From Aquipluma nitroreducens (GTDB lineage: Bacteria > Bacteroidota > Bacteroidia > Bacteroidales > Prolixibacteraceae): a stretch of DNA of 64,000 bases. Position 1 is the stretch's first letter. Every line of letters begins with the position of its first letter. Under the pieces are notes generated by a model. The model was given only the letters and a program-made list of their open reading frames with translations, did no database searches and had not been told where the DNA came from. A program made the translations under genes and the position numbers. The stretch covers positions 3,177,001 to 3,241,000 of the forward strand of contig NZ_AP018694.1 of NCBI RefSeq assembly GCF_009689585.1. Reading direction: 5' to 3'. This document shows, in pieces, positions 18,812-31,537 of the stretch.

Positions 18812-19520
18812 TATTTTTTGATTTAGTTGGTATCTATGAATGCGGCATAAATTTGGTTTATTTTTAGTTAAAATGAAAATGGTTTTTATCATGAAGTGAA
18901 GAGGTTCTTTCTTAATTGCTCAACGCATAAATGACGAATTTAAACTAGTTAGAACGGAATTGCCCATATGGAAATAGATCTAAAAAGGAAGATTCCTGGG
19001 CGTTTCTATTCTTGCAGAGCGCAAAGTAAATCATACCTATTTCATCGTTGTTTGGAATTAACAGTGTCAAGTAATTTGAATTTATTCTAAATAAGACATC
19101 GGAAATTATATTATTCTAATTTTACGCGATTTATTTGATTGTAATTGTCTGAAAATAAGCGTTGTAAAATTCTTATTTCATTCTGGTTTTTACGAAAAAA
19201 TGAATTATATTTACTTGTCTGGCCTTCCCCAACGAGGAATTCGTCGTATTGTTGTTTCGGGCTTGAGGTTTTTTGGTTAAAAATTCTTAATTTTTATATC
19301 TTTAAGCCGAATTGCAACAATCTACATTAAGAAACGACTCGCGAAAAAGGGAAAGGGAACCGGTAAAACGGTCTTTGAGATAGTCGAGCAATCAATGATT
19401 CGTTGAATATCTGAAAGAGTACATGTTTGAATGATTAAGCTTGTCAGTTGGTTAATCGATTGATATTCTTTTTACTGGCTGATCGGTGAGTTTGTATTTT
19501 GACTGGATTTGCAATTATAT
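18812..19520. other. 709-base gene-free stretch upstream of the giant adhesin
   Basis: No open frame with coding character, tRNA or repeat was found. It is AT-rich near 19080-19330 and must hold the divergent promoters. A small ACCG/CGGT hairpin occurs at about 19360 in what would be the adhesin leader. No clear TAnnTTTG element with a -33 partner was identified. Confidence 0.5.
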
Positions 19521-22500
19521 ATGTTTATTTTTAACAAAATAAGTTCTGGTGAGCCGGGATTATTTTTTGTTGTTGCATTGTGGATGCTAATCTGCTATGC
19601 TCTGCTGAATAATCGACATACCTCGTGGCTACACACCTGTTGCCTGTTTTTCGAACAGCTTGCATCTTCAATATACAAAAAATATAATGTCATATTAAAA
19701 GGGCAATTTCCAAATTCCTCAACAGGGCCCTGTCTTTTCTCCGTTATTTATCCTCAAGGTTTTACACCTGATCGCAAATCCAGTCGTCCGGATTTTCGTG
19801 CTCTTTTATCCGGATCAGTTCAAAAAACGGGCTTCCTGTTGGGAATTTTTGTGGTTTTTTCTTTTTCGAATCTCGATGCAGCAACCATTATTTCAACCGG
19901 AACCGGTGGTGCCTGGAGTAACCCGGCAACTTGGGTTGGAAGAACTGTTCCTGTTGCTGGTGATGATGTGACCATCGTTTCGGGAGCTATGGTTATTATT
20001 GATTCTGATATTACCGTAGGAACTTTAACTGTTTCGGGAACGCTGCAATTTAATGAGTTGACACCTCAGGTCTTAACTGCGAATAACATCATCACCGTAA
20101 ATGCTAAAGGTATATTCCGGAGCGCCCCTTCAGGAACTGTAAAAACGCATCAGTTAATTGCCCAGAGCAGTATTATTAACAATGGAACAATCGATTTTAG
20201 TTCCAATTTAAATGAAACGGGTGTCGAAATTATTTTTACGGGTTCGGGTAATGCAATCTTTAGCTGTAGTGATGCGGTTTTGACCAATTTGCGAAAAACC
20301 AATGGTTTAATGCTGAATAAAGGAACTTCTGCAGCATCGGTACTTTCGTTTATGCCTGGAAATACTTTTCAGGTTTTGTCAAATGGAGATTCAGGTGCAA
20401 GTGGATTTTTATCTATCGTTAACGGAACTTTTAACATTATCGGGTCAAGGAACTTCAGTAATCCGGTATTTAACACCGATGGAAATTATACGATTCCGGC
20501 GACGGGTGGTTTTTGGCTGGGAAACCAGAATGCAACTGTAATTGCGATGAATGGCACTGTTACAGTACTGGGCGAACTGAAAATTGCGAACGGAACGTAT
20601 TCTGTTGGAATTTCCGGATCGAACTCGTTGGAAATCCTGAATGACGGGCAATTTAAAATGTCCGGAGGAATCCTGAATATTTCGGGTAAATTAAAAATTG
20701 ATGGTGGCGCTGGTAGCGTTTCCGGAGGAAAAATTAACCTGGCACCCAGGAGAAATTTGGCAAATGTTGAACCTACAATTCATATTTCTGCCGATGCCCG
20801 ATTTGAAATGTATGGAGTTCCGCTGATTACCCTGGCATTTCCAAATTCTAATCCTATTCCTTCCAACGATATTCAGATTTTAGATGGTAGTGGATTTAAA
20901 TCGATAAAAGGTGGAACCATTCAGTTGGGAACCGAAGCTACACCTGTCGGAAGTACTTTCCTGATCAATGCCAACACAATACTGAGTCAACTGACCGCTT
21001 TTAGCGCTTGTACGATTCATGCGGTAAACACTTCAGATGCTGATGTTACCAATACTCCGATCGGCTCATTACCAGTAATTCCATTCGATCTGATCGCTCC
21101 CGAACTTACAGCCCCGGCTAAAATTACAATTCAGTGCGGCGAGACGATCCCGGCAGCGTATGCCACATTCCAGGAGTTTACCAATGCAGGTGGTTCGGCT
21201 ACTGACAATTGTACCCTTAAACCAGCCAGTTTTAAACTGATAAGCCAAGTTCAAAGCAAAACGAATTGTCCATATACCATTTCGCGGACTTATGAGATTT
21301 CGGATGTCTCTGGAAATGTTGGCAAAGCAGAACAACAGATTGTTGTGGAAGGTGAGTCCATTACATCACAGCCAGAAGTAATTGCTGAAAGTCCGGTTAA
21401 AGAGGAGTTGAAATTAAAATCGGCAATGGCTGTTTATACAGCTACTCAAAATGGAAACTGGAATGATCCTGCAACCTGGGGAAATTCAGGGCCACCGACC
21501 TCCGCTGACGACGTCAATACAGCTAGTTATACAGTAACTGTTAATGCTGATTCTTCTTGTAAAAATATCACGATTGGAGCCGGAGGAACTTTAAACCATA
21601 GTGGTACAAATACTTTAACGGTTACCGGAGACTGGACCAACAATGGAACATATAATGCAGGAACAGGAATTGTTTCTTTCTCAAACACCGGATCCACGAT
21701 TAATGGTGCCACAACATTTGGAATCCTTGTTATTAATTCAGGATCAAATGTTAATTCAAACATTATTGTAAATTCAGATTTAACAATCAATGATCTGCAG
21801 TTAATTAATGGATTATTAAAGATTAACGGGGGAACAACCACAATTACAGCGCTGAATGAACCAACTGTAAATCCAATACATAATACAATCCCCAAATCTG
21901 CAGGTTTGGAAGTTAATTCAGGAGGAAAATTGGTAACCCAGGACTTCACGATTAACAACAAAGGGTTGATTAGAATTAATTCTGGAACAGCCAATTTTGG
22001 CAATTCTACAGGAAACAGTGTTGAAACCAACACAGATGGAGCCTTTATTGTAGAAGGTGGTGGAACAGTTAATATAGCAGGGCGTTTACACAATTCGGCT
22101 TCCGGAACTGTTTTTGGAACAAGTTATACCTCGGGAATTACCATTTCTTCGGGTACAGTTACATTGAGTACAAAGGGAAATGCCTTAAGCAATGTGGGCT
22201 CTTTAAACGTAACTTCAGCCGGAACTTTTAATTTTAATGGAGGTACAATAATATTTCAGAATGCCAGCACTGCCACAACAGAATTAGACCTTGGGCTACT
22301 TAATGGAACCGGGACAAAAAATATTTCAGGAGGAACTTTTCAGTTTGGAAACGGTTCTCCTTCAGGTGAAACGTATAATATAATAAGTGAAATCCCCCTT
22401 TATAACTTGAAAACAAACGGCAATGCTAACATTGCATTAGGAAGTACTTTAATCTTGGGAAATCCACTTACCCTTAATGGTGCCAGCAAATTATTTTTAA

Positions 22501-25500
22501 ATGGAAATTCAATTCAAATACCTGTTTCTGCAACCGGCACTTATACTTTCCCTATTACTGATGCCAGCGGAACGGCAATCCCGGTTACAGTAAATCTTAC
22601 CGGTGGCAGTGGTGCAATTGCAGCTGGAGCATATATCGAGATAAAAACTTTTGATACGAAATATCCAGATAACGACAATGTTGCCAATTATTTAAATCGT
22701 TACTGGACCTTAACCACCAGCGGAATTACCAGCCCAATCTATACTGTTAATGCCACTTATTTGTCTTCCGATTTGCATAACACACCAGCTCATCTTACCG
22801 CTGCAAGTTATCTATCTCCAACATGGACAAAAATACCTGGGGCAACCATTGCTGGCAATGTGATTTCTTTTAGCAGCAATGTAACTAGTTTGGAATTTAC
22901 GGCTTTGGATGCACCAACCATAACGATTACAAATGCTGATCCTGAAGTTATTTGCAACAACTCGGCAGTAACTTTATCAACAACTACCACGGCTGATCCA
23001 CCAGCTTTAGCTTCCTATTCGTGGTCGTCCAATCCTGCCGGATTCACTGGTTCTACCCAAGACCTTACAATAACACCAACCATTGCAGGTACTTATACCT
23101 TTACTATCACGGTAACCGATGGAAACGGATTTACAGCAACGGATGCAACTACAGTTACCGTCAACCCGTTGCCAGTGATCAACAACATTACACTGGCAGC
23201 CATTTGCAGTGGCGGAGCATTTACCGTAACGCCTGCCAATGGTGCTGACGGAATAGTTCCTGTAGGAACAACTTACACCTGGATTGCCCCAACGGTTACA
23301 GGCATTACGGGTGCCGTAGCCGGAACTAATGCTGCCAGTATCAGCGGCACATTGACCAATACAACCAATGCACCGATTAATGTTGTTTATACCGTAACGC
23401 CAACGTCGGGCAGTTGTGCAGGTTCAACTTTTACGGTAACAGTGCCTGTTAACCCGAAGCCCGCGATCAACAACATTACACTGGCAGCTATTTGCAGCGG
23501 CGGAGCATTTACTGTAACGCCTGCCAATGGCACCGACGGAATAGTCCCAGCAGGAACGACCTATAGTTGGGCTGCCCCAGCAGTAGCTGGTATTACCGGA
23601 ACTGTTGCCGGAACTAATGCTGCCAGCATCAGCGGCACATTGACCAATACAACCAATGCTCTGATTAATGTTGTTTATACCGTAACACCAATATCAGGCA
23701 GTTGTGCAGGTTCAACTTTTACGGTAACAGTGCCTGTTAACCCGAAGCCCGCGATCAACAACATTACACTGGCGACTATTTGTAGTGGTGGAACATTTAC
23801 TACAACACCAGTCAATGGAACAGATGGAATAGTCCCCACCGGAACGACCTATAGTTGGGCTGCGCCAACAGTAGCTGGTATTACCGGAGCAGTTGCCGGA
23901 ATTGATGCTGCCAGTATCAGTGGCACATTGACTAATACAACTAATTCAAACATCAATGTTGTTTACTCGGTGATTCCAACATCGGGCGGTTGTTTCGGAG
24001 CAAGTTTTTCGGTAACAGTAACTGTTTACCCATTACCAACTGTCACAGCCCCACCTGATAAGACCTATTGCATGGGAGAAACAACTCTTGCGATCCCTTT
24101 AGTAGGAGTGCCTTCTGGTGTCGTTTTTGATATTAGCGGGGGAGCTACTATTGGCTTGACCAATAAAACTGGAGTTACTCAAATTCCTTCGTATGCGGCA
24201 ACTACAGGTTCGGCCACGATAACCATCACGCCCAGAGCCAATGGGTGTACCGGTACGCCAGTTACTTTTAATGTCGCAGTTAACCCAAGACCAAACATTC
24301 ATTTATCGGCTAGTGCACGAACCATTTGCTCGGGGGAAAGCACAAACATTAGTATAAGCAGTACAACTCCCGGGGCTACGTTTAGCTGGGATGTGTATAG
24401 TATGACCGGAACAATCTCAGGTGCAGGTAGCGGAACAGGAAACCTGCTTAACCAAACGTTACTTAACAATGCTCCCACATCCGGAACGGTTGTCTATCAG
24501 GTTACTGCATCAACGGGGACTTGTGAAGGTGCCACTATTAATTTGACTGTGAATGTACATCCTGCTGTTTCTGCAATTATTGCCGGAACAACAACGGTAT
24601 GCCAGGATGATAGCCCTGCTCCCTCAATTACGTTTACTGCAAGCGGGGGTACTGCTCCTTATACCTTTACCTATACGATTAATGGTGGTGCAAACCAGCA
24701 GGTCGTTGCCAATTCAGGAAGTACGGCAACCGTGACGGCGCCAACCAATGTTGCCGGAACTTTTGTTTATCAGTTGGTTAGTGTAGCTGGCTCTACCGGA
24801 TGTGCTTATCCGCAAACAGGAACTGCTACCGTAACTGTAAACCCAAAACCTGTTTTAACAAGCACCTTAACACCTCCGGGTATTTGCAGCAATACCTCGT
24901 TTAATTATACTCATATAAGTTCACTACTGAATACTGATTTCCATTGGGTTCGCGAAGTGGTTCTGGGTATTAGCAATCCCCGAGAAGAGGGAGATAACAT
25001 CTATCCTGATGAAACTCTTGTAAATACCACAACCAGCCCGATAGAGGTTGTTTATACATACACATTAACAGCTAATGAATGTACCAATGTTCAGTATGTA
25101 AAGGTGATGGTTACCCAATCTCCAGTTTTAATGAGCACACTAACACCGGCCACCATCTGCAGTGGAACAACATTTAGCTATACTCCTACCAGTAATATTA
25201 ATCCTGGAACTTCTTTCTCATGGACGCGTGCTGCAGATGGTTATGGCAATAGTGCCAAGTCAGGAACAGGAAATCCAAATGAAATACTATATAATAATTC
25301 AACCAGTGCAATTTCTGTTATTTATCATTATTCCTTAAGTTCCAATGGGTGTACTAATCCATTAGATTATCAGGTTATTGTGTCTGTTATACCTGCCCCA
25401 ATAGTAACTGCCAGCGCGTCAGAATATAATATTTGTCCAGGAACTAAAGTAGACCTTTTCTCCGGTTCTAATATTTCCTCAGGGCTTCCAACAACAATTT

Positions 25501-28500
25501 TAACTGAAAATTTTAACGGGACACCTAGTGGCTGGATAATAACTCCCACAACTGGAGAAGCTGCATGGACTTCTCAAATAGATGGATACGACTACATCTT
25601 GTATATTGATCATAAAAAACCAAAATGGACGGAAACGATTCATAATGTATTTCACTCCAACGACAATAGTACGTTCTATTTGTCCAATAACCATGCTGAT
25701 GGAGGTGGTACAGATTCACGATTAGTCACGCCTAAATTCAGTACGAATGGGTATACGAGTGTTACTTTAACATTTTGGCACCACTACAGCGATGGCAATA
25801 AATCAAAAGCATTCGTAGATTGGTCAACCAATGGGGCTACTTGGACTAATCTACAAACCTTTGATAATAGCGATTATGGTACAACTGATGGATTCGTTCA
25901 GGCAGTTGTCCCCATTCCTGTTGGACATCCATCAGTTTATATTCGTTTTAGACATCAGGCGGATGATGATTACTGGTGGGCGATTGACAATGTTTCAATA
26001 ACTGGTGTGCTTCAGGTTACTCCTGCCATCTTATGGACATCGAGCACCTCTTCCTGGACTTCAACACTAAAGGACCCAACTGGTGTCTCGCCAGCCGAAA
26101 CAACAACTTACACAGTAACTTATACGGATACTAATACAGGTTGCAGTGGAAGCGCCTCAACAACGGTAAACGTTTACCCAACGCCTGATGCCACCATACA
26201 TGCAGACTATTGTGTGGCTTCACCAAAAATACGGTTAACAACCGGGGCATTTTCAACTTATAGCTGGTCGCCACTACCGCTGGGCGAAACCAATGGAAAA
26301 CAATACATTGACATTGACATCGCTGGTATTTACACTGTAAATGTAACTGATGCACATGGTTGTTCTGGCACTGCTTCGATCAATGTGTCGAACGAATATG
26401 TTGTCAACGGAAGTTTTAATTCAGGAACTGCCGGATTTATAACTGATTATTTGCCAAGGGCTAATCTAAGTTCAGGAACTAGAGTCGTCAATGGAATTAC
26501 TTATACAGGGGGTGAAGGTTTTTTTGCTGTTGGTTCTGATGCTCATGATTACCATACGAACTTTTGGGGATGGGACCATACCGTTCACGATGGGAATGCT
26601 CCAAACAATTTTTTAATTGTAAATGGAGTCGGTAATACGTTAAGAGTGTGGGAAGAGACTGTAACAGTAGCCCCCAATACTAATTATTATTTTTCAGCTT
26701 GGGCCATAAATTTAAATGATGTTGGCCCTAACAGCACATATTGGCCAAGATTACAATTTTTTATCAATGATGACAATAGTACTAGTACAATCGCTCAACT
26801 AGGCAAAGGTATCACCGGTAGCAGTCAAAACAATCCGTGGTTAGACAAAGATCGTTTTTATGGTGTATGGAACTCGGGCAGTAACACTACAGCTAAAATA
26901 ACGATTAAACAATTAAATGCGGAAGCTGCGGGTAACGATTTTGGGATAGACGATATTTCTTTTGGGATACTTGATCCTTCTCCGGCAGCTATTAGTCCAT
27001 CAAAAGGCGGTGATGTTTGTGCTGGCGAATCCATTAACCTTCATGCCAATGTAACTGGAGGTAAAGAACCGATTCTCTTTTCCTGGTCAGGTCCAAATGG
27101 CTATACATCACACGATTCGATTCCAGTGATACCGAACGCGACTATAGCTTACTCAGGAACATATACATTAACCGTTAGTGACTGGTATGGTTGTGCTATT
27201 GCTCCTAAAACGGTTGATGTGGTTGTTTATCCGGCGCCTACAGTGAATGCCGGTCCCGATCAACTTTATGGCTGTTCGGCTACGAGTGTGTTCACTTTAA
27301 ATGGTTCTGTTGGAGGTTCAGCAACCAGTGGAACCTGGACTACCAGTGGTGATGGCACATTTGACGATATTCATTCAATGACTGCGGTATATACCATTGG
27401 AACTAACGATATTACAGCGGGTTCAGTTACCCTCACGCTCACTACCGACGATCCTACCGGGCCATGCGTACCTGTTAGCGACGATATGGTTATCACAATT
27501 CATCGTTCCCCTGAACTGACGGTAGTTGTTGCTAATCCACTTTGTGCCGGATATAGCGATGGTTCCGCAACAGCCTCGGTTACTAACGGTACGGCCCCTT
27601 ATACCTATTTATGGAGCGATGGTCAAACTACCGCTAAAGCTACGGATCTTGCCGATGGAACTTATACGGTAACGGTAACCGATGCCAACAACTGTACCGA
27701 CACCAAATCAATCGTTGTAGTTGAACCAACTCCATTGGTGGTTTCACCTGCTTCATTTACGCCGCCAACGTGTTATGGAGGCAACGACGGAACAGCAACC
27801 GTAAATGCTGAAGGCGGAACTGAACCTTACGTTTACCAGTGGGATGCAGCCACCGGAAACCAAACTACAAAAACCGCTGTTGGGTTAAAAGTTGGAATTT
27901 ACTTGTTTACAGTTACCGATGCCAATGGCTGTAACATAACCTCTGATTTTGTTTTGGTAACGCAGCCCGAACCTCCTGATCTGTTTTGCCCAATGGATCC
28001 TGAGGCGGTTCAGGCTGCTGCAGGTGAAACAACGGCTGATGTTATTCTTGATGACCCCATTTACGATCCTGATTGCCAGATACTCAGTTGGACAATGAGT
28101 GGCGCGACTGTTTCTGCTACAGCGAATTTGGGTGTTGTTCCTTCACCTTATACATTTAATGTAGGAACCACTACTGTTGAGTATAAGGCCGTAGATGTGG
28201 CAAATAATGTATTAACCTGTACGTTTGATGTGGTTGTGACTGGCGGCGGTGCCGATTTAGCCATCACCAAAACGGTCAATCCTTCCCCGGTAAATACAGG
28301 CGATCAGCTTGTTTATACGATAACCGTTACAAATGCAGGTCCGTCTGAAGCAACAGCTGTTAAAATTGCCGACGTTGTTGCCGTTTTACCATCTCCTGAG
28401 TTTACAACCGATTTGGTAAATGAACCCTGGAAACCGTGGGTAACACCTTACGATGCGGGTAATATTGCTAGCGGAGGTTCGGCTACCATTTACATCAGGG

Positions 28501-29126
28501 GTGCAGTTCCGATTACACAGTGTGCTGCTATAGGAAATACGGCTACAGTTACAAGCGATACCAACGACGATGATTTGACAAATAATAGTGCGACAATTAC
28601 TACAACTGTTACCGACAATCAACCGCCAACATTTACGCTGCCTGTTACTCCGTTACCTTATTGTGTAAGTACTATACAAAGTGCGGTTTACAACCCAACA
28701 CCTACAGCCGTACCGCCTGGTTATCCCGAGTACAACGATCTAACTACTCCACGTCCAGAATATTATCAGTTCACTAAAGGGAGTACCATTTTCGACCTCG
28801 ATCCGGCTATTGGTGCGAACAATTTTGAAGATAACTGCTGTCCGGTGGGTTCACTTATATTGCATTGGCGTATTGACATTGCCGATACTCCAGATCCTTT
28901 AAACCCAGCGCCGGCCAAGATAAGCTATGCTCCCATTACCGGAACTGACCAGCCTTCGAAACATGATGATTTTCGACTGCCTGGCGATGGGGTGACTTTT
29001 ACAGATGTCATTCATCAAATAAGCTATTGGTTGGAGGATTGCACCGGACCTCCCGGAAATATGTCGCCGGAACAATCACGGAGCATCATTATTAGCCCAC
29101 GACCCAACATTATAAAAATGCCATAA
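19521..29126 (+). CDS. Giant multidomain surface adhesin with PKD-like, SprB, HYR and DUF11 repeats
   Basis: The protein has 3,201 residues from the ATG at 19521. Hydrophobic segments lie at about 13-29 and 108-123, the latter a plausible signal (GFLLGIFVVFSFSNLDAA) after an odd long N-terminal stretch. Two beta-helix-like regions open with WSNPATW (about residue 130) and WNDPATW (about 645). Three 96-residue PKD-like repeats lie at about 1219-1507, with further PKD-like units beyond. A MAM/CUB-like domain occupies about 1995-2165, a carbohydrate-binding-like beta sandwich about 2295-2485, two SprB-type repeats about 2670-2810, a HYR-like domain about 2815-2910 and a DUF11 domain about 2911-3030. 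No T9SS sorting domain is evident at the C-terminus, so anchoring may depend on partners from the downstream genes. Likely role: adhesion or extracellular matrix. Confidence 0.85.
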   Translation: MFIFNKISSGEPGLFFVVALWMLICYALLNNRHTSWLHTCCLFFEQLASSIYKKYNVILKGQFPNSSTGPCLFSVIYPQGFTPDRKSSRPDFRALLSGSVQKTGFLLGIFVVFSFSNLDAATIISTGTGGAWSNPATWVGRTVPVAGDDVTIVSGAMVIIDSDITVGTLTVSGTLQFNELTPQVLTANNIITVNAKGIFRSAPSGTVKTHQLIAQSSIINNGTIDFSSNLNETGVEIIFTGSGNAIFSCSDAVLTNLRKTNGLMLNKGTSAASVLSFMPGNTFQVLSNGDSGASGFLSIVNGTFNIIGSRNFSNPVFNTDGNYTIPATGGFWLGNQNATVIAMNGTVTVLGELKIANGTYSVGISGSNSLEILNDGQFKMSGGILNISGKLKIDGGAGSVSGGKINLAPRRNLANVEPTIHISADARFEMYGVPLITLAFPNSNPIPSNDIQILDGSGFKSIKGGTIQLGTEATPVGSTFLINANTILSQLTAFSACTIHAVNTSDADVTNTPIGSLPVIPFDLIAPELTAPAKITIQCGETIPAAYATFQEFTNAGGSATDNCTLKPASFKLISQVQSKTNCPYTISRTYEISDVSGNVGKAEQQIVVEGESITSQPEVIAESPVKEELKLKSAMAVYTATQNGNWNDPATWGNSGPPTSADDVNTASYTVTVNADSSCKNITIGAGGTLNHSGTNTLTVTGDWTNNGTYNAGTGIVSFSNTGSTINGATTFGILVINSGSNVNSNIIVNSDLTINDLQLINGLLKINGGTTTITALNEPTVNPIHNTIPKSAGLEVNSGGKLVTQDFTINNKGLIRINSGTANFGNSTGNSVETNTDGAFIVEGGGTVNIAGRLHNSASGTVFGTSYTSGITISSGTVTLSTKGNALSNVGSLNVTSAGTFNFNGGTIIFQNASTATTELDLGLLNGTGTKNISGGTFQFGNGSPSGETYNIISEIPLYNLKTNGNANIALGSTLILGNPLTLNGASKLFLNGNSIQIPVSATGTYTFPITDASGTAIPVTVNLTGGSGAIAAGAYIEIKTFDTKYPDNDNVANYLNRYWTLTTSGITSPIYTVNATYLSSDLHNTPAHLTAASYLSPTWTKIPGATIAGNVISFSSNVTSLEFTALDAPTITITNADPEVICNNSAVTLSTTTTADPPALASYSWSSNPAGFTGSTQDLTITPTIAGTYTFTITVTDGNGFTATDATTVTVNPLPVINNITLAAICSGGAFTVTPANGADGIVPVGTTYTWIAPTVTGITGAVAGTNAASISGTLTNTTNAPINVVYTVTPTSGSCAGSTFTVTVPVNPKPAINNITLAAICSGGAFTVTPANGTDGIVPAGTTYSWAAPAVAGITGTVAGTNAASISGTLTNTTNALINVVYTVTPISGSCAGSTFTVTVPVNPKPAINNITLATICSGGTFTTTPVNGTDGIVPTGTTYSWAAPTVAGITGAVAGIDAASISGTLTNTTNSNINVVYSVIPTSGGCFGASFSVTVTVYPLPTVTAPPDKTYCMGETTLAIPLVGVPSGVVFDISGGATIGLTNKTGVTQIPSYAATTGSATITITPRANGCTGTPVTFNVAVNPRPNIHLSASARTICSGESTNISISSTTPGATFSWDVYSMTGTISGAGSGTGNLLNQTLLNNAPTSGTVVYQVTASTGTCEGATINLTVNVHPAVSAIIAGTTTVCQDDSPAPSITFTASGGTAPYTFTYTINGGANQQVVANSGSTATVTAPTNVAGTFVYQLVSVAGSTGCAYPQTGTATVTVNPKPVLTSTLTPPGICSNTSFNYTHISSLLNTDFHWVREVVLGISNPREEGDNIYPDETLVNTTTSPIEVVYTYTLTANECTNVQYVKVMVTQSPVLMSTLTPATICSGTTFSYTPTSNINPGTSFSWTRAADGYGNSAKSGTGNPNEILYNNSTSAISVIYHYSLSSNGCTNPLDYQVIVSVIPAPIVTASASEYNICPGTKVDLFSGSNISSGLPTTILTENFNGTPSGWIITPTTGEAAWTSQIDGYDYILYIDHKKPKWTETIHNVFHSNDNSTFYLSNNHADGGGTDSRLVTPKFSTNGYTSVTLTFWHHYSDGNKSKAFVDWSTNGATWTNLQTFDNSDYGTTDGFVQAVVPIPVGHPSVYIRFRHQADDDYWWAIDNVSITGVLQVTPAILWTSSTSSWTSTLKDPTGVSPAETTTYTVTYTDTNTGCSGSASTTVNVYPTPDATIHADYCVASPKIRLTTGAFSTYSWSPLPLGETNGKQYIDIDIAGIYTVNVTDAHGCSGTASINVSNEYVVNGSFNSGTAGFITDYLPRANLSSGTRVVNGITYTGGEGFFAVGSDAHDYHTNFWGWDHTVHDGNAPNNFLIVNGVGNTLRVWEETVTVAPNTNYYFSAWAINLNDVGPNSTYWPRLQFFINDDNSTSTIAQLGKGITGSSQNNPWLDKDRFYGVWNSGSNTTAKITIKQLNAEAAGNDFGIDDISFGILDPSPAAISPSKGGDVCAGESINLHANVTGGKEPILFSWSGPNGYTSHDSIPVIPNATIAYSGTYTLTVSDWYGCAIAPKTVDVVVYPAPTVNAGPDQLYGCSATSVFTLNGSVGGSATSGTWTTSGDGTFDDIHSMTAVYTIGTNDITAGSVTLTLTTDDPTGPCVPVSDDMVITIHRSPELTVVVANPLCAGYSDGSATASVTNGTAPYTYLWSDGQTTAKATDLADGTYTVTVTDANNCTDTKSIVVVEPTPLVVSPASFTPPTCYGGNDGTATVNAEGGTEPYVYQWDAATGNQTTKTAVGLKVGIYLFTVTDANGCNITSDFVLVTQPEPPDLFCPMDPEAVQAAAGETTADVILDDPIYDPDCQILSWTMSGATVSATANLGVVPSPYTFNVGTTTVEYKAVDVANNVLTCTFDVVVTGGGADLAITKTVNPSPVNTGDQLVYTITVTNAGPSEATAVKIADVVAVLPSPEFTTDLVNEPWKPWVTPYDAGNIASGGSATIYIRGAVPITQCAAIGNTATVTSDTNDDDLTNNSATITTTVTDNQPPTFTLPVTPLPYCVSTIQSAVYNPTPTAVPPGYPEYNDLTTPRPEYYQFTKGSTIFDLDPAIGANNFEDNCCPVGSLILHWRIDIADTPDPLNPAPAKISYAPITGTDQPSKHDDFRLPGDGVTFTDVIHQISYWLEDCTGPPGNMSPEQSRSIIISPRPNIIKMP
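23177..24040 (+). repeat. Three tandem 288-nt units within the adhesin gene
   Basis: Units start at 23177, 23465 and 23753 (exactly 288 nt, 96 codons). A stretch of about 77 bases around the unit 1/2 and unit 2/3 junctions is identical. The first two are nearly identical throughout, while the third has diverged. This indicates recent duplication or slippage. Confidence 0.9.
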
Positions 29127-29166: not shown

Positions 29167-29393
29167 ACTCACCCCAAGCCCATCTGCGATGTGCTTTGCC
29201 CCTCTCTCGAGAGAGAGGGGCGGATGTCAGCGAGCTGACATCGGGGTGAGTCAGGGAAACGGATTAAAAGTGAAAAGAGAGAATAAAATTGAAACAATAT
29301 AACTGGCACTCACCCCAAGCCCATCTGCGATGTGCTTCTCCCCTCTCTCGCGAGAGAGGGGCAGACTGGAGCTAGCGACAGTCGGGGTGAGTC
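29167..29393. repeat. Cloverleaf-like palindromic repeat, copies 1 and 2 (upstream of DUF559)
   Basis: Copy 1 is 29167-29252 and copy 2 is 29308-29393. Each is closed by ACTCACCCC/GGGGTGAGT and has three internal arms: CATC-tgc-GATG, a CCCCTCTCTCG palindrome, and a variable third arm (GATGTCAGC/GCTGACATC in copy 1, GACTG/CAGTC in copy 2). The start-to-start spacing is 141 bases and the A-rich spacers of the copies are similar. The third arm changes sequence on both sides at once, which suggests a maintained structure. Confidence 0.9.
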
Positions 29394-29425
29394 AACAAAA
29401 AAGAAGATAAATAAAACATCAAGTT

Positions 29426-29797
29426 ATGAGCGATAATCCAACACCGGTAAGCAGAGCAAGAGAGCTTCGGCAGAATATGACTGAAGCAGAGCAAGTGCTA
29501 TGGAAAGAACTTCGAAACCGAAAGTTTATGGGATTGAAGTTTGTTCGGCAGCATCCGATTATTTATCAGGTAATAGATAACCAGCCAAGATATTTTATAG
29601 TTGATTTTATGTGTTACGAAAAGAAGCTGGTAGTTGAGGTCGATGGTCTGATTCACGAATTTCAGAAAGAAGAAGATGAACATCGGGAAAAAATTCTGGA
29701 AAGTCTTAGCTTAAATGTTTTGAGAATTAGGAATGAGGAAGTTAAAGACATTTCAACAGCGTTAGAGAAGATTAGAGCATATGTTTTACGATTATAA
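29426..29797 (+). CDS. DUF559 (Vsr-like) endonuclease-domain protein
   Basis: The protein has 123 residues. The DUF559 family start (RARELRQNMTEAEQVLWKEL) is followed by the PD-(D/E)xK-like core: D60 in IVDFMC and E71-x-D73 in VVEVDG, with a later basic helix and the C-terminal NVLRIRNEEV strand. It is a predicted small nuclease related to very short patch repair endonucleases. It is embedded in an array of five palindromic repeats, two before and three after, and begins 32 bases after copy 2 and ends five bases before copy 3. This suggests it acts on or moves with the repeats, but function is inference. Confidence 0.92.
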   Translation: MSDNPTPVSRARELRQNMTEAEQVLWKELRNRKFMGLKFVRQHPIIYQVIDNQPRYFIVDFMCYEKKLVVEVDGLIHEFQKEEDEHREKILESLSLNVLRIRNEEVKDISTALEKIRAYVLRL

Positions 29798-29802
29798 CCA
29801 TT

Positions 29803-30203
29803 ACTCACCCCGCGCTCATCTGCGATGTGCTTTTCCCCTCTCTCGCGAGAGAGGGGGAACGTCAGCTTGTGGACGTGGGGTGAGTCAACAATCAAATGAA
29901 TAACACCGAATAGGCCAGAAAAAAGGCTTGTCGAAAAAAGAGAATGAAAGATGAACAAATTAAAATAATACACAGACTCACCCCAAGCCCATCTGCGATG
30001 TGCTTTTCCCCTCTCTCGCGAGAGAGAGGGGCAGACTGGAGCTAGCGACAGTTGGGGTGAGTCAGAAAAATGAATTAAAAATGGGAAGAGAGAATGAAAT
30101 TGAAAAATAAAACCCTTACTCACCCCAAGCCCATCTGCGATGTGCGTTTCCCCTCTCTCGTGAGAGAGGGGCTGACTGGAGCTAGCGACAGTCGGGGTGA
30201 GTC
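29803..30203. repeat. Cloverleaf-like palindromic repeat, copies 3 to 5 (downstream of DUF559)
   Basis: Copies lie at 29803-29886, 29976-30063 and 30118-30203. They keep the ACTCACCCC/GGGGTGAGT closing stem and the central CCCCTCTCTCG palindrome. Copy 3 has a different third arm (ACGTC/GACGT); copies 4 and 5 share GACTG/CAGTT or CAGTC with copy 2. Spacers between 4 and 5 resemble those between 1 and 2. Confidence 0.9.
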
Positions 30204-30568
30204 AACAAAATACAATAAAGAAGTTATTAACCTTAAATAAATAAAAAATGGAACAAAACTACATCGAAAAGCAAGTGAAGAATCAAATTCAATTAATCGT
30301 TCGCGAAACAAATTCCGAAGTGAATTATTCAGCACTTCGATTTCAATCGAAACTGAAATTATCCGGTATTTTTATAATCCCTAATAAAGGGAAAGGGCCG
30401 CCAGGCCAAACGCGTAGCCCGGGTTATTTTCCTAAGCACCCGCCCGATGAAGTCGCCACCCCCGACAGGGTTTCGAACCCTGTTAGGGGTAAAGGCCACA
30501 TTTTTAATAGTATACATTTTTTTAAAACAATAAAACCAAATTTTTTATTACAATTAAATTTTTTAATC
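30204..30568. repeat. Leader of the secreted protein gene with a REP-like palindrome
   Basis: The stretch holds a palindrome at 30458-30490 (CGACAGGGTT...AACCCTGTTAGGGG) in a GC-rich block (30380-30500) unlike its AT-rich surroundings. The open frame from 30248 that runs through it ends inside the true signal peptide and is not a convincing gene. Confidence 0.6.
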
Positions 30569-31537
30569 ATGAAAAAGCAATTTTTATTTCTCACGATGTT
30601 TTCGGTTGCGTTAATTTTCGCTGGTACTAACAAATCTTATGCGCAGTGCGCTGATGATGCTTTACATCCAATGGCTGGAAAGGATTACCATTATGTGATT
30701 ACAACAGCTGGTGGTGGTACTGCTAAATCCTATGAATGGATTGTTACAACTTCAACTGACATTGTTAAAACAGGGACTTTTGCAACAACGATCGCTCCAG
30801 GACCAACTACTTATACAATAACTAATGCAGGTACTGCAGATGCAACTATTAACTGGTCACCAACTGTAATTGCAGCAGCGATGGCGGCAACTCCTACTGA
30901 TTATTATGTAGCGGTTAAATATGTAGCTACGAGTGCGGCGGATGGTTGTGATGTGGATAATGTTAAGGCTTATAAAATCAACCCTGTGAATATGTTCCAA
31001 ATCGACCTTGCTAATGTTAAATCGGATGGTTCTGCAGGTACTGGTAATAATTGTACATCTACTGTTGTTGATGCAAAAATTACTGCTGGTGCTACTCCTA
31101 CTATTACTTATGATTATGGCACAAGCAGTGTATATGTAAAAGTTACTGCCAAAAATTTCAGTGGCAGTTGGGATATGACTGTTGGAAGTGGCCTTTTGGC
31201 TGCTCTTAATGCTGCCGAATCTGGAAAGCTGTATTGGTCACCAACTATTGGAGGTACAGAAATCGAAGTAACTCCTGGGACTGCTATAACTATTCCGGAA
31301 AAAACTATTGATCCTACTGATGCAGAAGATATTTATTTAAGACTTGAGGTTGATCATAACACATGGGAAGGGTTGACTGCAGAAGCATTCCCATTTGCTG
31401 TTGATGGAAAAGATAAAGCAGGAAATGATGATGTTTCCGCAACTTGCGCCGCAGATGCTGACATTGTCACTCAAACGATTCTGGAACGTCCAACAATTAC
31501 TAATGGCACTGTTGTTGGTGGGTTTATTATGCCGTAA
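30569..31537 (+). CDS. Secreted PKD-like protein of the adhesin cluster
   Basis: The 322-residue precursor starts at the ATG at 30569, which gives a clean signal peptide (residues 1-26, ending KSYAQ). The N-terminal part has the pattern KSYEW...INWSP...YYVAVKY...DGCD, shared with the N-termini of the next two secreted proteins at 33124 and 34019. A Thr/Ala-rich beta region follows, ending GGFIMP. No T9SS sorting domain is seen. It is probably a surface or periplasmic component of the same apparatus as the large adhesins; its function is unknown. Confidence 0.75.
   Translation: MKKQFLFLTMFSVALIFAGTNKSYAQCADDALHPMAGKDYHYVITTAGGGTAKSYEWIVTTSTDIVKTGTFATTIAPGPTTYTITNAGTADATINWSPTVIAAAMAATPTDYYVAVKYVATSAADGCDVDNVKAYKINPVNMFQIDLANVKSDGSAGTGNNCTSTVVDAKITAGATPTITYDYGTSSVYVKVTAKNFSGSWDMTVGSGLLAALNAAESGKLYWSPTIGGTEIEVTPGTAITIPEKTIDPTDAEDIYLRLEVDHNTWEGLTAEAFPFAVDGKDKAGNDDVSATCAADADIVTQTILERPTITNGTVVGGFIMP

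Follow-up and report, generated by a model that had tools for sequence, protein, structure and literature searches.

The stretch of DNA analysed here (the window) comprises 64,000 nucleotides of Aquipluma nitroreducens (contig NZ_AP018694.1, positions 3,177,001 to 3,241,000 of the forward strand), whose genome is a 5.71-Mb single contig. Within it, a short gene of the DUF559 family is surrounded by five copies of a repeat unit of about 85 bases with a cloverleaf-like fold, two of them 5' and three 3' of the gene. Repeats of a related kind adjoin DUF559 genes in many phyla, and a link between gene and repeat that is not due to chance is strongly supported. We lean towards reading the gene as the autonomous member of a mobile element consisting of repeat and nuclease.

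The DUF559 locus and its cloverleaf repeats

The features of the locus are as follows (positions in the window):

29167..29251, + strand: cloverleaf repeat copy 1 (sequence reading, fold and match to covariance model R1)
29252..29307, + strand: spacer between copies 1 and 2, similar to the spacer between copies 4 and 5 (repeat families D2 and D3)
29308..29392, + strand: cloverleaf repeat copy 2, 5' of the gene (sequence reading, fold, R1 match)
29426..29797, + strand: DUF559 (PF04480) gene, 123 amino acids, nuclease-like by family (open reading frame and Pfam)
29803..29885, + strand: cloverleaf repeat copy 3, 5 bases past the stop codon (sequence reading, fold, R1 match)
29976..30062, + strand: cloverleaf repeat copy 4 (sequence reading, fold, R1 match)
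30063..30117, + strand: spacer between copies 4 and 5 (repeat comparison)
30118..30202, + strand: cloverleaf repeat copy 5 (sequence reading, fold, R1 match)

All five copies bracketing the gene, their coordinates and the 5-base gap to copy 3 were recovered as given in the preliminary description of the locus; copy starts lie 141, 495, 173 and 142 bases apart, so that the paired spacing of 141-142 bases noted there holds for copies 1/2 (141) and 4/5 (142). The closing stem (ACTCACCCC/GGGGTGAGT) is invariant in all five window copies and the central hairpin nearly constant, and the third arm varies in sequence with its pairing kept. Folded as single-stranded DNA, each of the five copies beats its shuffled versions (z -3.6 to -6.9, with at most 1 of 200 shuffles equally good). 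The cloverleaf is the minimum-energy fold in four of them; copy 4 prefers another single-strand fold, and in copy 3 the cloverleaf accounts for just 1.5% of the fold ensemble. A reading of the repeat as structured RNA was rejected, as Rfam at gathering scores yielded a single tRNA across the window and no other match, introns included. We prefer a DNA element, with a role in transcripts being possible, given the near strand symmetry of the motif, its presence in frame within genes and its agreement with the triplex rules described below.

The window protein matches PF04480 alone among Pfam families (105 bits against a gathering cut-off of 20.6, E 2.5e-30), in agreement with its earlier identification as DUF559, which Pfam lists as a 'protein of unknown function'. 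When compared with solved structures, a DUF559 profile (A6) matched the 'endonuclease-like protein' 3hrl (E 1.3e-34) and the 'mobile intron protein' 3r3p (E 2.3e-5), which we take to be the homing endonuclease I-Bth0305I of the EDxHD type; the single window protein reached E 0.34 against 3r3p, which is not significant. Residues D60, E71, D73, H77 and D84 of the window protein are invariant among 39 sequences. According to excerpts of the published work, a DUF559 gene has been assigned to the EDxHD family (PMC9403480), YcjD of Escherichia coli has been counted among the PD-(D/E)XK proteins with a profile match to Vsr (PMC1189080), and Legionella segments with transposase and DUF559 are recombination hotspots (PMC12308824).

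Other identities were considered and discarded. Protein structure entries naming bacterial toxins (E 0.0064 and worse) were judged chance matches, and as to a defence system, PADLOC gave only a weak 'homing endonuclease' match (E 0.0021). Searches with tblastn placed the window protein in 38 of 72,556 plasmid and 2 of 50,697 phage records, and none turned up when viral contigs were screened for close relatives, so that DUF559 does not appear to be usual plasmid or phage cargo. In the surroundings of the locus, one open frame of 3,205 amino acids (19509-29126), repetitive by eye, ends shortly 5' of copy 1, and an extra hairpin with a C-rich left and a G-rich right neighbour was noticed by eye 3' of copy 5 (30450-30495), within an open frame at 30248-31537.

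Cloverleaf and triplex repeats beside DUF559 genes

A covariance model (R1) built from the five window copies found 22 sites in the whole genome, 5 within the window and 17 outside; the same genome holds three DUF559 genes. R1 matches were obtained in 23 of the 61 genomes searched and in 4 of 39 genera, and the exact cloverleaf form is therefore nearly genus-bound. Among 53 distinct copies from the window genome and its relatives, 51 could be parsed. Their outer stem is paired at 8 or 9 of 9 positions, and the side arms are exchanged among many well-pairing sequences (47 on the left and 48 on the right, two of the latter only 2-3 nucleotides long). Calculated with RNA parameters, summed arm pairing amounts to -326 kcal/mol on the left, against -115 +/- 11 for shuffled arms, and to -411 against -179 +/- 14 kcal/mol on the right. 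Arm pairing thus lies well above the level of shuffled sequence, and the compensatory change that the preliminary description had read from the third arm is real.

For the relatives, 28 R1 loci were fetched, chosen as the best-scoring and not at random, and four of them have a DUF559 gene within 1.5 kb. At L060 and L074 clear cloverleafs stand on both sides of the gene, at L070 one clear and one weak copy (E 7e-4) precede it and a weak one (E 0.009) follows, and at L228/L056 five tandem cloverleafs, followed by a run of N, adjoin a gene inside which the contig ends. No similarity was seen between the flanks of the window locus and those of L060, L070 and L074, or among the latter. The DUF559 proteins of these four loci are mutual nearest relatives among 156, being 56-63% identical (next-best identities 49.5, 49.5, 47.7 and 53.6%), and have a 9-residue insert in common. 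This indicates one nuclease clade residing with one repeat family at different sites. Many solo cloverleafs of the window genome (L009-L024) lie, by eye, within a unit of about 170 bp whose ends resemble TAAGTAATRGGAA. Two of them, L009 and L010, have identical sequences at separate sites, with a possible TA duplication. Possible features of miniature inverted-repeat transposable elements (terminal inverted repeats, short target duplication) were noticed by eye at some of the solo copies but at none of the five in the window.

In a search set of 296 genomes, with the phylum taken as Bacteroidota, DUF559 is found in 171, in 126 of them at E below 1e-15. We analysed 73 loci of this phylum (three of the window genome, 30 returned by the search and 40 from a ranked list, strong matches only) and 80 loci of many phyla, the best 80 of at least 577 confirmed matches; L028 and L126 are the identical place. 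Perfect hairpins of at least 8 bp occur within 250 bp of DUF559 at 65 of the 73 and 73 of the 80 loci, and past some 300-400 bp their frequency is no higher than background: the 100-bp flank bins adjoining the gene hold 0.58 and 0.77 hairpins (stem at least 8), against 0.046 farther out at the same loci. The commonest motif is CCCTCTCCC-loop-GGGAGAGGG-3 nt-GGGTGAGGG, with close variants, whose final strand matches the purine strand of the hairpin by antiparallel triplex rules. This third strand fits perfectly at 221 of 669 nearby purine hairpins, with a spacer of 3 nucleotides in 174 of the 221, against 6.9% (maximum 9.0%) when downstream sequences were swapped between loci.

With a rule close to, and not identical with, the published one (stem at least 7, loop 2-8, spacer 0-7, fit at least 8 of 9), a triplex-type motif lies within 300 bp of the gene at 119 of 153 DUF559 loci, 54 of 73 in the phylum and 65 of 80 in the many-phyla sample. 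The expectation behind the preliminary description, that DUF559 genes elsewhere would have related repeats as neighbours, is thereby borne out. No such motif was found within the same distance of control genes of the same phylum (ParE 0/30, GIY-YIG 0/30 loci). In a further sample, 10 of 38 matches from a plasmid collection (Cyanobacteria, Deinococcus, Alphaproteobacteria, Neisseria), purine hairpins with a stem of at least 6 occur within 350 bp in all ten, seven having a perfect third strand. At the level of genomes, at least three CCTCTCC hairpins are present in 54 of the 126 genomes with a strong DUF559 match and in 10 of the 170 others, the pattern having 1,050 matches in total against 46 for the reversed control; this co-occurrence is partly circular because the flanks of the gene itself are counted, and related genomes are not independent.

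A chance neighbourhood would agree with the position of 17 of the 22 own-genome cloverleafs outside the window, but it is contradicted by the ParE and GIY-YIG controls and by the five genomes in which a cloverleaf adjoins a DUF559 gene, and we consider its probability negligible. The genes could also be passengers, moved by something else and collected at unstable, repeat-rich sites, as might be suspected where loci lie in restriction-modification genes or adjoin a transposase. The absence of the motif at both kinds of control loci and the pairing of a specific DUF559 clade with a specific cloverleaf speak against this, which makes it very improbable.

The motif associated with DUF559 is the intrastrand triplex motif (BoxC/PIT/TM). 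BoxC became known from E. coli in the 1990s, and PIT elements, as triplex-forming repeats, in 2000; in the available text of Holder et al. (2015; PMC4666352), 23 intrastrand triplex copies are reported for E. coli MG1655, associated with instability and found by a search rule with loops of 1-6 nucleotides, and the gene contexts discussed there never revealed a mobility activity. We found copy 9 of Table 1 of that study letter for letter at 1351204-1351239 of E. coli K-12, 167 bp from the end of ycjD, which is annotated as a DUF559 protein; one of the 23 K-12 copies thus adjoins such a gene. Among the excerpts of literature mentioning DUF559, no paper was found that links the family with palindromic or triplex repeats.

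Like the E. coli copies (BoxC/PIT/TM_ECO), the repeats at DUF559 loci combine a hairpin with a third strand, G.GC, A.AT and T.AT triads and mostly a 3-nucleotide spacer. They differ in being linked to DUF559, no linked mobility gene being reported in what is available of the published survey (PMC4666352). The window copies differ further: in every one of the five the third strand fits the hairpin at 9 of 9 positions on one strand or both, but a whole arm of 19-23 nucleotides occupies the spacer between hairpin and third strand, which places them outside the published loop limit. At L074, in another genus, the arm is absent on one side and replaced by 2-3 nucleotides, and this locus therefore connects the cloverleaf with the triplex form. 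The cloverleaf appears to be a locally elaborated version of an intrastrand-triplex repeat that is itself widespread, and the scope of the preliminary description, confined to the cloverleaf, was too narrow.

Flank repeats, allelic states and in-frame hosts

A strong repeat common to both flanks (score at least 60) is present at 72 of 146 DUF559 loci, the direct alignment being better in 46 and the inverted one in 26, and of the 27 longest shared repeats (score at least 100) 24 are direct. Between control flanks, taken 700-1000 bp away, none is shared at a score of at least 60 (0/139). In many of 18 flank repeats viewed in full, the repeated piece is the entire palindromic unit with at least two arms; in the clearest cases the architecture is one of direct repeats. 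At L002 (1343-1932) we also noticed 61 bp before the gene that recur after it with 98% identity, outside the short hairpins, similar to a very long target duplication. Among the control genes, flank-shared repeats at a score of at least 60 occur at 1 of 30 ParE and 15 of 28 GIY-YIG loci. The GIY-YIG loci (L272-L301) have flank repeats scoring at least 100 in 9 of 28 cases (ParE 0) and hairpins within 250 bp in 15 of 30; these are of other kinds than the triplex motif, some with pieces resembling tRNA ends. GIY-YIG genes and their repeats are possibly a parallel nuclease-repeat system.

At one position in valS of a single genus, the element occurs in three states. It is full and in frame in G000, G310, G300, G304 and G299, reduced to the right-hand repeat (solo) in G305, and replaced by a plain loop (empty) in G303, G298, G306, G308, G301 and G307; G296 has a plain copy and, in a long frame, a second match that is split, G302 and G309 have a weak match only, and G297 gave no match. 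The distribution is patchy on a tree of the flanking valS sequence, in which solo G305 is sister to full G304 (support 1.0), full G299 to empty G301 (0.98) and full G000 to empty G306 (0.8), one inner node of this group having a support of 0.14. G305, G304 and G299 share the same right-hand repeat without any difference in sequence. In a HrpA-type gene of three Betaproteobacteria, site 1 is full in L129 and L145 and solo in L130, and site 2 is full in L130 without an insert in the two others. These alignments suggest that full copies may be gained and lost at fixed sites and may also arrive at new ones.

Alternatively, the nuclease could work as in RAYT/REP (repetitive extragenic palindromic) systems, acting at replication forks on the repeat in its folded, single-stranded state and moving solo and gene-bearing forms as DNA, with no homing between alleles. 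The strong folding of the repeat, the scattered solo copies, the presence of one DUF559 type at unrelated sites and the arms that vary yet stay paired would all agree with this. However, the Pfam match is to DUF559 only and not to an HUH transposase, so that rejoining of the DNA would need another activity, and the recurrence at one valS site is more homing-like. We regard this mode as unlikely, though worth serious consideration.

If the reading frame is required to stay open over at least 100 codons ahead of the DUF559 match and at least 60 behind it, 47 of the 153 loci are in frame with a host gene, and 38 of these were scanned for the host (L001 being among the nine left out). The hosts include leucyl- and methionyl-tRNA synthetases (LeuRS, MetRS), an Ile/Val-type synthetase, MetH, HsdR, HsdM, type IIG enzymes, UvrD-type helicases, a HrpA-type helicase, PriA, a Mur ligase, an aminotransferase and methylmalonyl-CoA mutase; the valyl-tRNA synthetase (ValRS) of the window genome is also an in-frame host. 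Insertion sites differ within LeuRS and within MetH. In the restriction enzymes, DUF559 may instead be a native extra nuclease domain. At L047, a single HsdR-type frame carries both a GIY-YIG and a DUF559 domain.

This spread over hosts bears on the idea that DUF559 serves upkeep, as a Vsr-like nuclease that repairs DNA or clears structures and has the repeat as its substrate, gene and repeat being linked since the repeat is harmful or gene-regulating and not through mobility. The requirement of VsrA for the SOS response in Caulobacter lacking its cytosine methylase, as stated in part of the source (PMC12907096), and the instability associated with triplex repeats in E. coli (PMC4666352, excerpt) would be in line with it. 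In-frame insertion in many hosts, direct repeats around the gene and the full, solo and empty alleles are left unaccounted for, and we hold upkeep to be improbable.

A candidate mobile element and its relation to known systems

In the mobile-element reading that we favour, the element has the form [palindromic unit]-DUF559-[palindromic unit], the unit usually being an intrastrand-triplex repeat and in the window a cloverleaf. The nuclease would cut a solo unit or the DNA next to it, perhaps while the unit is extruded or single-stranded at a fork, and repair of the break from a gene-holding copy would place the gene between two copies of the unit, a spread similar to homing. The gene could then be lost again, by deletion or by recombination between the two copies, so that a solo unit is left, and insertions inside genes would survive when in frame. 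The wide association of gene and repeat, the architecture of the loci, the full, solo and empty alleles with their patchy distribution and the in-frame hosts are observations; cutting, copying by repair and the direction of the steps are inferred. A wider and more tentative proposal, which could well be correct but which we would not yet bet on, assigns to DUF559 the mobility function still missing for bacterial intrastrand-triplex repeats in general. The enzyme, specific for a structure or for a site, would home its gene into the repeats, and the result would be a selfish system of wide distribution that exists in full, solo and empty states and also enters essential proteins in frame. GIY-YIG genes, of unrelated fold and flanked by other duplicated repeats, may provide a parallel.

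Several observations weigh against the mobile-element reading or against the link between gene and repeat behind it. None of the 16 cloverleafs fetched, of the 17 outside the window, has a DUF559 gene within 1.5 kb, so that the repeat persists without DUF559, as is normal for a non-autonomous repeat; G086, G125 and G001 likewise carry 34, 20 and 12 CCTCTCC hairpins with the DUF559 match absent. Purine hairpins more than 500 bp from the gene fit the third-strand rule almost as often as near ones (29 of 114 perfectly), and the rule therefore marks a class of hairpins, their number and not the rule being special near the gene. Under the strict rule 34 of 152 loci have no triplex-type motif, and 74 of 146 are without a strong flank-shared repeat. 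The outermost motifs have no orientation bias (out/out 22, in/in 22, mixed 24) and are thus not simple terminal inverted repeats. In valS, the insert is less alike than the flanks in 9 of 10 pairs of full copies, so that most of them could go back to an early insertion that was lost repeatedly. The exception, which counts in favour of mobility, is G310/G300 (insert 82.7%, flanks 79.3%): the nearest full host of G310 is G304 (flanks 87.5%, insert 73.4%), and its nearest insert is that of G300. Finally, a nuclease cutting every unit would also cut its own flanks, and a further rule is needed.

The interpretation in the preliminary description is partly supported: the link between nuclease gene and repeat is upheld by the relatives' cloverleaf loci with a DUF559 gene and by the related repeats at DUF559 genes elsewhere, the other cloverleafs of its own genome counting against it, and recognition or spreading of the repeat by the nuclease would be a further, hypothetical step. 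A simple terminal-inverted-repeat transposon is disfavoured by the unbiased motif orientation together with the predominance of direct repeats among the longest flank repeats.

In the text available, the 2015 survey found no spreading agent for triplex repeats (PMC4666352), and the link to DUF559 makes both testable in E. coli K-12. It may explain the spread of an old class of triplex-forming repeats and could account for unusual insertions that lie in frame in tRNA synthetases, in MetH and in restriction enzymes. A partnership of nuclease and repeat with a chemistry unlike that of RAYT/REP would also be gained.

In REP systems, many solo palindromic repeats are accompanied by few nuclease-like RAYT genes bracketed by repeats. 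The same arrangement is seen here, and the comparison drawn in the preliminary description is fair in the sense of 'works like'; unlike RAYT, however, DUF559 is not an HUH (Y1) enzyme, the repeats are of the triplex type or cloverleafs, and the elements also lie in frame inside genes. For the palindromic elements of Rickettsia, we know of no nuclease gene. They resemble the present repeats in being palindromic and in frame in unrelated genes (PMC10969869, in part). I-Bth0305I, taken to be 3r3p, is related in sequence to the DUF559 profile, but the window protein is much smaller than this multi-domain enzyme (PMC3943268, excerpt), has palindromic flanks and lies in a window without an intron match. 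VsrA of Caulobacter belongs to the DUF559 family as well, but in the text at hand (PMC12907096), which makes no mention of repeats, it was studied as a mismatch-repair-like enzyme.
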